Assembly: GCA_036583965.1 (NCBI GenBank)
Contig: JAZBQD010000015.1
Coordinates: 73,081,830-73,145,829 of the forward strand
Reading direction: 5' to 3'
Source of the DNA: Prunella strophiata
Taxonomy: Eukaryota; Chordata; Aves; Passeriformes; Prunellidae
DNA: 64,000 nt
Positions 55,601 through 61,600 of this stretch are shown here, piece after piece (position 1 is the stretch's first letter; each line of letters opens with the position of its first letter). A program made the position numbers and the translations under genes. The notes below the pieces were generated by a model. It did not search any database and was not told the DNA's origin. It was given only the letters and a program-made list of their open reading frames with translations.

Positions 55601-58600
55601 ATTACATGCTTTGATGCTGCACTGACTTTATTTCTAGTTCTAAATCCCAACTGAATTAAATTTTAAGAACTATCAAAAGAATTTATATTTTCTTGAGGAT
55701 TTCAAGTTCCCTGAATCAACTTTACTCTTTTCTCCTCCTTGGTCTGAAGCTGTACTACAGGCTACCAGGTAGTTAGTGTTTTAAAAACTGAGTTGTCCTT
55801 CAATTGCATAAAATACTTTGAATTACAAATTTGTCCCAAAGTAAAATTGCCATGTTCTTAAAAGTGTAATATGTTAACTATGTTCCTTAAAAAAATTATT
55901 CACTCTTGTATAAACTAACAGAAACATTGCTAATTTAAGTACTGACCTAGAAGTTTATACAGAGGAAAAGGGATTTCATTGAAAAAGGCAAAAAATAGGT
56001 CCTACAGTAATAAGAGTGAAGTGTTGAAGAAGTAACCAGTAAAACTTTCAATGTGTATATGACACTTAGCTGTTCTACCTCAAGGATTGGACTCCAGGTG
56101 AGAACTGAATGAGCTCATGAACACCATCCCATTTCTTGAAACCGTTGCTGGAGAAGCATTATCAATATTATGAGGCTCAAAGACTACTTTGCAATTTGGC
56201 GCCATAGGTATCCGATCACCATTCGCTAGAGTAAGAGTTCTGTTGTCATCCAGGAACAGAATTAAGGTTCTCAATCCAAATAGCATCAACTGGACCATCA
56301 AGAACTATCCAGATGTGGTCACCTATAATGCAACATAACATATAAAAAGACCTATGGATGAAGTGCTAGTTTCTTTCAAGGGGCAGTGTCTTATTTCTGC
56401 AAATAAATTTTTAACTAATTCTAAATTCATGCACACAGCTACAATCTTAGCTTTTAATACAATTACCATTTCCATCACTCAATTTCACTTAGGTACTTCA
56501 TTTTGTCACCTATTGATAATAATTATCCATTCTTCAGTATATAAAGTGCCATCAGCAGAAGGCACCAGTTTTTAATACTCTGAAAGAGTTTTATGGATCC
56601 AGTCTTCAAGACAGTAATAAATTAGGTTTATTTCAAGTTACATGAAATGACATAAAGAAGATAACGAACTACAGATATATTTAAACACCATTCATTCATT
56701 TCAGTGAGTTTTATAAATGTAGAGAAATTAAATGAAAGGAGCACTTGAAAAAAATCACTCTTTCAGATAGCATGCCCACTGTCATAAGTAAAAGAGGTCC
56801 ATTAGGGGAAGATTCTTGTCATTTTTTCTGTCCCTAAACTTGATCCAGGTTCCTTCTAAGTTTTTCCATTGCTTTCCATTTACTAATAGAAAAGCATTTT
56901 AAAGCCTGCCTCTGTTTCCTAGGAGGGTCTGTGTCTGTTTTGTCCTGCCTTACTTGGGTAGAGAGCAATCTCTTTTCTGGCTGGAAGGAGACCCCACCTT
57001 GGCTCCTGGCTGCCTGCCTTTAGGGAGCAGACAGCCCCACTGTGCATTGCTAGACATCTCTTTAGCCAGAGATCTGCCTTCAGACTCAGTGTTTATTATG
57101 AAGGCCTAGGCAGCTTGAAGCTTTGCTAGCGTTGAACCAAGGAGATATGAAACAGATTATAAACTTTTTATATGAGGGTTTTTATAGCTACAGTTCAGAC
57201 ATCTCAAGCATGAGATAGTCTGGAGTCTGACTCATAAAGAGATATTACAGAACTCTTAAAGAGTAAATCTGAGGAAGTCATATGAGTGTGCTAATATATA
57301 TTTCATCCTTGAAGGAAGAGATAAAAAAATCAATAGTTAATGCCATGCTACATTCTCAAGGGTGTTACATCTTGAGATTTGAAACAAGCCTACCAAAATT
57401 AAATTGAAAAGCATTTTCTATTTTAAAGGTATTTGTATTTCTGAATACTAAGAATTTTTGTATTAAAATAGTGCAACAAGTGCTAGGATTTTCTTTTATT
57501 TTTTCTTGTAAGGCATAATGATAAGATCACACACTAATTTTCAGATCAAAAAACGGAAGAAACCATCTAGCATCAAACTATCAAGGCCACTCATTTAGTT
57601 AAAATAGCAGTCTAAGAATATATGTCAGCATAATTTTAGGCAGAAATTGGCTTCCTAAATAGAATTATCTAGTGCCATTTGAGGTGGACTAGGATATGTG
57701 CAGGGCTAGCTGGTATGACACAACTGGTATGATGAGATTTTTCCTTTTAATATGGCAGGTAGAGAACAGGTAGAAATCCTGACAGCATCAAAAGTTCTAT
57801 AGGACACCACTACTGAGGCAACTGACTTTTACCTTCCACTTTCCTTCCATATGAGGGCCTAATATACAAGAGAGAATTCAGTAAATGCAGTGAAGTAATA
57901 TTTGTTACACTACAGTGTTTGAACACAAAGCATTTAGAATAGAGACTGTAAAAGTGGACAGAAATTCTTCCAGCAATTTTCCAATGCCTTCCATGTAAGA
58001 AAAAAATAATCTGCTACAGTGCTTTATGAAGTTTTCCTGAAGCTTGAGGTTTTTTCTTGCTTCATTTTGAAGGGAAGCCTTTTTCATTATACCTGTATTG
58101 GTTCTGGCTGAGCTGGAGTTCCTTTCCCCAGAACAGCCCCAAACAGTGCTGTGCTCTGCACTGGTGGCTGGAAAGGTGTTGATAACACCTATGATAACCA
58201 AAGTTTTGGGAACTGCTGAGCAGCACGGGCACAGCATCAGCTCTGTCTCTCAACATTCCCCACATCAAGGGGCTGGACGTGAGCAAGATCCTGGGAGGGG
58301 ACACAACCAGGCCAGCTGACCCAAAATATCCAAAGGGATATTCCATGCCATAGGACATCTGCTCAGATATAAAAGCTAAGGAAAGGAGGAGGTGGGGCAT
58401 CTGTTGTTTACAGTGTTTGTTTTCTGGAGCAACCTCTATGTGTGCTGAAGCCCTGGTTCCTGGGAAGTGGCTGAACATCACTTGCTGATGCAAAATAGAG
58501 AAAAAACCTTTTTTCCTCTTTGCTTGTGCTCAAGCAAATTTTTGCTTTTACTTTAGTAAACTGCCTTATCTCAACCTATGAGTTGTTTTCCATTTATTTT

Positions 58601-61600
58601 CTCTCCCCTATCCAGCTGGGCAAAGGAGTTGTAGTGCAACTTGGTGGGCACCTGCAGTCCAGACAAGGTCAACCCAACCACAATACCTTTCTTTGCTCTT
58701 AAAGTTTTTCTCCAGAGCGCTGAAAATATTCCATCTGTCCAATCATTTGTTGCCACATCAAGGCGTCCAAACATTTGCGGAGCAGTTATAGCTTTAGGAT
58801 TCATTCTCATTTCACGATGAGGCTGTCCACAATCTATGAAGGCAAACCACCAGTTAGTTTTGACATTTCTTTTCAGCACTAAGAGAACTTTGACAAACTC
58901 AAACTCATTACACCCAAATGTATGCTTTAATGTATGCATTTATAATTATAAGAACATGTGTATTTACTTGAAAAACTTCTCTTGCTATACAAAATTCATT
59001 AATTGGAGATGTCAAAAAAAGTAAAATGAAGTTCTGAAACTTTTGAATATTCAATTCACATTTCATAGTTTCATTGGGAACAGAAAAGCAGCAAGATGAA
59101 ATTTATTCAAGGTTTATTTCAATATTTTGAAGACTTATCAAACAATAGAGCTTTAAAACATTCGGTTTGGATGCACATTTTTAAAACCCAATGAATAAAT
59201 ACCAGACAGATTATTGGTTATTTTGCCCTTCTGTGCACTTGCTTACATCTTAGAACAGATAAAATATACAATATTAGCATATTCTTCTGAATTCTCTTAG
59301 GCAAATTCTAACCAGCCATACCATGACCACATAACCTTTGTTTTTAATCTCGTTAGCAACAGCTTAAAAACTACAATGCTGGATATCCTTAAAAAACCCA
59401 ATATTAAAATGTAACCAGGAGCCAGTAGTAAGATGTTGAAAGAAAGAGCTGAAAAAATTATGTATTTTAAAATAACTTCATTATAATCAGATTTCACTAA
59501 CATGTAAGATAGAAGCCTGACAGATCAGTTTAACATTTCATGAGGTTGTGTGGGAAGATCAGCTTTGAAAAAAGTAGTGAGGTGACTATCTTGGTAGTAG
59601 TTCACATCTTAGTGCTAGAAAAAAAGATAGGAAAACTGCAACGCAACTTTGTGCTTTCTGCTTTTTTTTTTTTTTCCCCTAAATGGAACAGTCATTTCCA
59701 CTGCAATGTAGAGCTTACATTGTTTCTTAAGCACAGCACATTACTGCATGTATGAGACTTGCTGAACTATTTTTGAACTATTTTTTACAGAAATTATTCA
59801 CTTCTGGAAAATTGTATAAGCAACTTGTGAAATGGGGTAACACAAGCTTACCTCAAAAGAGATGGTTTTCTCCCCAGACTATGACCTTTTATTTTAATAA
59901 GATCAAGCAGACATTCTTCAACTAATTTTTTTGTTTAGAAATACAGATGACAAAAAAAACCCACACACAGTCTTCAAGCCTCCAGTGAGGACACAAAATT
60001 AATTCCCTTGAAGATTTTTTCACTGTCTAAACTAGGAATTTATGGTTATAAAACCAGTTATTTTATATTGCAAAGACCCTGTCTTATGCACTGTGTTCAA
60101 AAAGACATAAATACTTCTGATTAGCAAAAGGTTCCAGCATTACCTCAGCAAAACCCAGGAGATGCTTTAATCACTTGTCTGAGCTGCCTGCCTAGACTGT
60201 ATTCCTCTTTCTTAATCCATCTAGAATAAGAACTTCTGATAAAAGTATGATAATATGGAAAAAATGACATGAAGCATATGGTTTTGAATGTCAGACATTT
60301 TCAAGCTACTAGAATAATTAGTATCTCAGCATACAAACTCATTCTTCCAGTAATATATTCTCACAGTGAAGCAATTGAGGTTTTCTGAGAAGAAACAATG
60401 GGGTTTAAACTTTACAGTGTAGCAGCTCAGTAACAGTTTACAGCATAAGTACCAACATACCTGTCATGGCTTTCATTAAGGTGTGGATGCAGGTAGTTTT
60501 TCCTGCACCACTAGGTCCTAGTGTCATCAATCCATGCCTTACTCTCTGGGTTTCAAAAAGCTGGATAACTTTCAATTTCCAAGGAGGATGACAAACAAGG
60601 CCAGATTCCTCCACCTAAGAGGCAGTGACAGAAAACCAAATAACTATTATTTTGAAGCACAAAATATATTTTGATGCCTTTAGATATAGATAGATAAATA
60701 GACAGACAGATAGATAGATATAGATATATCATCAACAGATTACTATACCCTCTGTAAAGGCTTTGTGTATATTAAAAATAACTGTTGGAAAAAGGAGATA
60801 TATTTGGTATTCAAATACACATTCAGAAAAATAAGGTAAACCAGCCTCTATGTACATTATAATCTATCTATTAGATATACCTATTATATATATACATATT
60901 ATATTCTTAAACTGGCCCTACTGAAGTATTACAAACACCTAATGGGAAATTAAATAAAACATATGTAATTTTAAGTAAATCTTTTTTCAAATTAATATTC
61001 TTATTGTCAAGGCTTTAGATAAACATTAAATTCTGGGTCACATAAGGCAAGCTCATATACATGCATTTTTCAAATTGGACCCCAGTAACCATGACTCCAG
61101 AAAACCACAGGACACTATAATTCCAATTCATGACCTCCTGAAGAATAAGCTTAATAACACTATGCCAGTGGTAAAGATTTATGGACAAGCTTACACTTCT
61201 TCTAAATAGTAAAATATAATATTGCCAGTGGGATAGACTCCACAACAAGAATTTTCTTAGATGTCACTTCATGACTGTTATGCCAGGGCACCACAAATCA
61301 TGAGAAACATCACCTGTTTGTCAATGGCTGCTTCAAGTTCAGGATAGCCTGCTTTATCAAGCTGGATATCTGGAAACAGATCTTCAATTAAACTCAGAAA
61401 TAAGGGTTCGTCTTCATCAATCTAGTGAAAATCAGGGGGAAAAAAATCCATGCAGATTAAAACCTCTTTTATTTATTTTATCAGCTTTAGAAAGAACAAT
61501 CCCTAAGTCCTGAAGACCTTAAGAAATGCTTGAGAACATAAGGAACCATCTATAATAATCCTCTAGGCAATAAACATTAGAAGGACACAGAAGAAAGAGA

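Follow-up and report, generated by a model that had tools for sequence, protein, structure and literature searches.

A solo long terminal repeat at the exon 6 splice donor of DNAH5 in Prunella strophiata, with a target-site duplication that probably kept the donor

We analysed a stretch of 64,000 nucleotides from the genome of Prunella strophiata (contig JAZBQD010000015.1, positions 73,081,830 to 73,145,829; hereafter the window), which carries exons of the gene for dynein axonemal heavy chain 5 (DNAH5) on its minus strand. A solo long terminal repeat (LTR) of 589 bp lies four bases into the intron that follows exon 6, counted within the window. We consider it highly probable that an LTR element of the ERVL class integrated over the donor splice site of this exon, and that the 5-bp target-site duplication kept the donor in place. 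That the donor is still alive is suggested by the sequence.

The insert and the exon 6 donor

The motif ATACC occurs at 58089-58093 and again at 58683-58687, with an exact match at five of five positions, and flanks on both sides an insert of 589 bp (58094-58682) that runs from TG to CA on the plus strand (TGTATTGG...CAACCACA). An earlier note on this DNA had claimed both the repeated motif and the TG...CA ends, and direct reading of the sequence bears this out. Exon 6 (58687-58833, minus strand) codes for ...LRAKKG and ends at base 58687. Its donor GT (58686-58685) falls inside the right-hand copy of ATACC. Read on the minus strand, this copy (58683-58687) consists of the last base of exon 6, a G, followed by the donor GTAT, which agrees with the earlier note. 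The other copy reads GGTAT at 58093-58089 on the minus strand and is followed by AATG. It constitutes a displaced donor in an ancestral context of the type GTATAATG, as had been proposed, with its GT at 58092-58091, 594 bases downstream of the present donor. Furthermore, positions +5 and +6 of the present donor are now supplied by the LTR terminus TG, so that AAG|GTATTG replaces AAG|GTATAA, also as claimed before.

The best match of exon 6 was a chain of dynein axonemal heavy chain 5 (8j07_n0, E 1.8e-28; next chain 5.9e-27). As protein, exons 6 and 7 align to DNAH5 without gaps over 130 residues, and exons 17 to 20 over 256 residues. The exons were placed with a guide protein, and in-frame GT-AG solutions were found at all 42 DNAH5 junctions; since the search required GT and AG, this establishes the presence of such sites and does not argue against others. 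The acceptor partner of the exon 6 donor is exon 7 (56079-56322, minus strand; first base 56322), which contains two net +1 frame breaks in the assembly. Across the join of the two exons the protein reads AKKGDHIW, and its alignment to DNAH5 is free of gaps. The intron between them starts and ends outside the LTR.

The structure of the duplication alone is not evidence for an insertion. We scanned part of the window for the bare pattern NNNNN-TG..CA-NNNNN, in which the same five bases flank TG and CA at a spacing of 300-1000 bp. This yielded 305 cases, of which two cover one of the 42 DNAH5 donors; the other of these two (29157-29585) would place exon 23 inside the element. Because the pattern is this common by chance, we rejected any significance drawn from the duplication structure by itself. 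Evidence independent of this structure comes from a genome-wide family with the same ends, from 5-bp matches between the flanks of its members, and from a step in guanine plus cytosine (GC) content. The GC content of the insert is 0.475 versus 0.352 in the remaining intron, and only 0.08% of stretches of 589 bp reach the value of the insert.

Exon 6 was also used to search the genome for related junctions. There were two other matches, both approximately 77% identical (all three candidates were scored). In a DNAH8-like paralog the exon ends as ...AAAAAGG|GTATGTAAATAC, i.e. G|GTATGT, a junction without an LTR. The second match reads ...AAGAAG|GTAATGG, and its phase is one base off. These junctions suggest that the intron predates the LTR and that an intron start of GTA is a feature of the gene family. 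Since the matches are paralogs and not orthologs, we infer the insertion event itself from the duplication. The DNAH5/8-like exon that differs from DNAH5 by one base in donor phase (L096, G000:C60:60716020-60716173) lies about 12 Mb from the window on its chromosome; it could be a third paralog, or its phase could reflect another base error.

The repeat family, its orientation and its age

We searched the 589-bp insert against the genome from which the window was taken (1.053 Gb, 838 contigs). The search gave 1544 first-look candidates; 40 of these were scored, and all 40 matched at E < 1e-98. The 39 scored copies other than the insert itself were 75-83% identical to it, and 24 of them started at base 1-3 and ended at base 583-589 of the query. 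Both ends were present in 27 of the 39 fetched copies, and after removal of two with an end other than CA and of one duplicate, 24 copies remained for a comparison of their flanks. Mean identity between the 5-bp flanks was 0.458, compared with 0.254 for shuffled partners, and none of 2000 shuffles reached the observed value. In contrast, flanks of 3, 4, 6 and 7 bp were not more similar than in the shuffles.

A 5-bp target-site duplication is the rule for ERVL (ERV3) elements in songbird annotation (PMC6523648). The 5-bp duplications in the family fit this rule, and the findings together support the insert as a solo LTR of a large family of the ERVL class, where the class label is read from duplication length only. 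The earlier note had called the insert a solo LTR, which gains support from the family with the same ends in the same genome; its ERVL label holds to the extent that duplication length can carry it. Comparison of the LTR with phage and plasmid collections gave no match, and among viral contigs three stretches fitted a pattern but none was confirmed. An open frame through the insert showed 50% identity over 113 residues to one contig-derived protein, the sole match among 108 candidates.

Two internal signals indicate the orientation of the LTR. A TATA-like box, ATATAAAA, lies at 58367-58374 on the plus strand; 27 of 34 aligned copies, this LTR among them, have TATAA or ATAAAA at this place. A motif resembling a poly(A) signal, AGTAAA, follows at 58555-58560 on the same strand and is present in 25 of the 34, again counting this LTR. 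A promoter-like signal followed by a poly(A)-like signal is the order expected of an LTR; hence, the element (58094-58682, plus strand) is antisense to DNAH5. On the strand of the gene, the LTR also contains AATAAA at 58593-58598, a motif found in 4 of the 31 listed copies. Were the intron retained, this motif could act prematurely as a poly(A) signal.

Distances were calculated for 34 copies, namely this one and 33 of the 38 other non-duplicate copies (five were omitted as partial). The closest scored copy differs from this LTR by a Kimura two-parameter (K2P) distance of 0.163, although a closer one may exist since 40 of the 1544 candidates were scored. The terminal branch leading to this LTR has a length of 0.129, and no two of the 34 copies are closer than 0.14, one near-identical pair excepted. 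At a substitution rate for birds of 2-3 per site in a billion years, the insertion would, as a rough estimate, be some tens of millions of years old. The distances thus point to an old rather than a recent insertion. Private changes of this copy comprise two one-base insertions, one 5-base insertion and one one-base deletion. As an argument for a local assembly error these indels are weak; two other copies carry similar numbers of one-base insertions (two in L037 and three in L042).

Predicted splicing and rival explanations

Donors were scored with a weight matrix built from the 41 remaining DNAH5 donors. The present donor, AAG|GTATTG, scores 5.87, with 6 of the 41 real donors below it and a predicted U1 duplex of -6.5 kcal/mol. 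The inferred ancestral donor, AAG|GTATAA, scores 5.70 (again 6 of 41 lower; predicted U1 duplex -5.7 kcal/mol). Since the two are alike, a weakening of the donor by the insertion is not supported; instead, the model supports a retained donor of ordinary strength, kept at no predicted cost. The displaced donor (58089-58093, minus strand), which stands as CAG|GTATAA, scores 7.43, with 15 of the 41 lower and a predicted U1 duplex of -7.7 kcal/mol.

These data are best explained by the following history. An ERVL-class, retrovirus-like element would have integrated antisense to DNAH5, with a 5-bp staggered cut exactly over the exon 6 donor (G plus GTAT). Integration would have duplicated the five bases, leaving GGTAT at the exon while the element supplied the intron from position +5 onwards. 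Recombination between the two LTRs of the element would then have left a single LTR, which is presumably removed inside an intron that is about 0.6 kb longer. At the far side, the CA end of the LTR would have turned the displaced copy into the better-scoring CAG|GTATAA. Indeed, whenever the CA end of an LTR comes to lie on G|GT, the result must be CAG|GT, which combines an improved donor with an AG|GT at which splicing could take place again. Some transcripts may extend into the LTR and, owing to a stop there, be degraded. Because the arrangement is old, it is probably tolerated.

Several findings weigh against this history. A perfect 5-bp pair is absent from all 24 other copies compared, and only seven of them match at four or more of the five bases. 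The flanks of the other copies thus appear worn, and a perfect pair at so old an insertion is somewhat lucky. Moreover, the displaced donor outscores the donor held to be in use. Finally, DNAH5 in this assembly shows ten frame breaks of one base, each of them net +1, which may reflect a decay of the gene.

If the displaced donor at 58092 were the one mainly used, exon 6 would run through the LTR and yield mostly non-productive messages or, alternatively, a purposeful isoform bearing the LTR. Its higher score and stronger U1 duplex fit this idea. Yet in a message that runs from exon 6 into the LTR, a stop codon would follow at 58573-58571, 478 nt ahead of the displaced junction, and decay of such a message is predicted. 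For a conserved gene one would expect the cost to be high, and the insertion is nevertheless old; we regard predominant use of the displaced donor as unlikely. Slightly more doubtful is the proposal that the pair of donors acts as a built-in switch between the productive junction at 58687 and the stop-containing, LTR-bearing junction at 58093, which would have tuned DNAH5 for tens of millions of years. The LTR could in principle also contribute a cassette. The best potential acceptor AG inside the LTR on the strand of the gene lies at 58376-58377 (minus strand; predicted score 9.85), with 58375 as first exon base, and the candidate cassette from there to the displaced donor comprises 283 nt, not a multiple of three. 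Splicing of the LTR by itself, from the donor at 58686 to an AG at the LTR end, would restore the ancestral donor for a second splice, in the manner of a recursive site or stwintron. The geometry is right, since the CA end and the duplicated G place an AG immediately ahead of the far GT (58093/58092), and such a splice restores AAAG|GTATAATG exactly. This AG, however, scores 0.15 as an acceptor, less than 41 of the 42 real acceptors and a value that 33% of 4288 decoy AGs reach, which makes separate removal of the LTR very improbable.

A different explanation is that this copy of DNAH5 is dead or dying, and that an LTR at its donor was tolerated for that reason. Half of the ten frame breaks lie in the window: two in exon 7 (56079-56322) and one each in exons 17 (37231-37362), 18 (36223-36377) and 20 (34482-34714), all on the minus strand. 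The other five lie upstream, at loci L048-L052, and were read from match coordinates, less exactly at two loci where matches overlap. Against a dying gene stand the in-frame junctions, 42 of 42 in a search that required GT and AG, and the gap-free alignments of 130 and 256 residues. Other genes of the assembly were represented by one protocadherin cluster, in which 7 of 16 matches had open frames shorter than 600 residues and 9 had frames longer than 800. One of those counted as short, L089, showed a frame of 771 residues once fetched. In three short protocadherin exons the direction of the breaks was mixed, with a +1 step each in L088 and L091, a second step of -1 or +2 in L088, and an ambiguous case in L090. 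The short protocadherin frames and the uniform direction of the DNAH5 breaks make the latter look like base errors of the assembly. Hence, the frame breaks are likely assembly noise, and death of the gene is as doubtful as a built-in switch. Least credible of all is the reading that the insert is ordinary intron sequence with a 5-bp repeat around it by chance. Although the bare pattern occurs often enough, the 40 scored copies of exactly this segment in the genome, with shared ends in 24 of the other 39, in effect refute this reading.

Other repeats in the window and related systems

The window starts with a perfect tandem array of a 7-bp unit, CTTTTTC, in 128 copies with 100% matches (1-898). 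Translations of the minus strand at 43400-43800 look like the final part of a CR1 retrotransposon protein, and this segment adjoins an A-rich run at 43274-43338. A 30-bp unit is repeated 1.9 times with 92% matches at 52570-52627, within an intron. No repeats of at least 60 bp were found within the window, and no RNA family reached its gathering score.

The insert resembles the avian ERVL (ERV3) solo LTRs described in PMC6523648 in its TG...CA ends, its 5-bp duplication, its many copies and the lack of an internal region; bird solo LTRs in general are treated in PMC11009239. It differs in that it lies four bases into an intron and over a splice donor. Mammalian exons are surrounded by so-called underrepresentation zones, in which LTR elements are depleted (PMC3088655). 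The same source counts six full-length LTR elements in the mouse reference genome that lie no more than 20 bp from an exon, a single one of these at an acceptor, and in mammals the elements near donors are more often antisense. The DNAH5 element is likewise an intronic LTR less than 20 bp from an exon, near a donor and antisense, i.e. on the side and in the orientation that persist. It differs from the mouse elements in that its duplication spans and copies the donor, that it is a solo LTR, and that the genome is bird-like.

Introners (PMC9860276) also carry splice-site bases in their duplications and leave the message unspoiled by the insertion. They are described as elements of many copies, mostly DNA-transposon-like, that create new introns, whereas the DNAH5 element struck, a single time, an intron that was already there and made no new one. 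The LTR is thus not an introner, as the DNAH8-like paralog has an intron in the same place without an LTR and both ends of the DNAH5 intron lie outside the element. Stwintrons and recursive splice sites (PMC12403724) resemble the present case in that the 5' donor region of an intron is interrupted by another sequence. As described there, however, they involve two-step splicing and no target-site duplications, whereas here a duplication is present and the inner acceptor scores poorly. Because LTRs near exons in mouse and the duplications of introners are already known, the present case is a variation on known things. Literature searches listed no paper to the point on a donor preserved by the duplication of an LTR or transposon, and none that combined DNAH5, a passerine and a retrovirus.

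A bird genome contains 150,000-180,000 splice donors. With this number, about one insertion with a duplication containing a donor GT is expected before selection for 1544 copies, and about 30-70 for an assumed total of 50,000-100,000 LTRs. A strike on a donor is therefore not improbable, and the notable part is its survival in a conserved gene.

The arrangement indicates that a retrovirus-like insertion can strike a splice site without destroying it, as the target duplication regenerates the site. Since LTR elements are depleted near mammalian exons, a copy that lies four bases inside an intron of a conserved gene for cilia, and has apparently long been retained there, offers a natural test of how much donor sequence is needed, and of the competition between two copies of one donor. 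Should the far donor copy indeed be used, an ancient LTR would be linked to the dosage of a gene for an outer-arm dynein.

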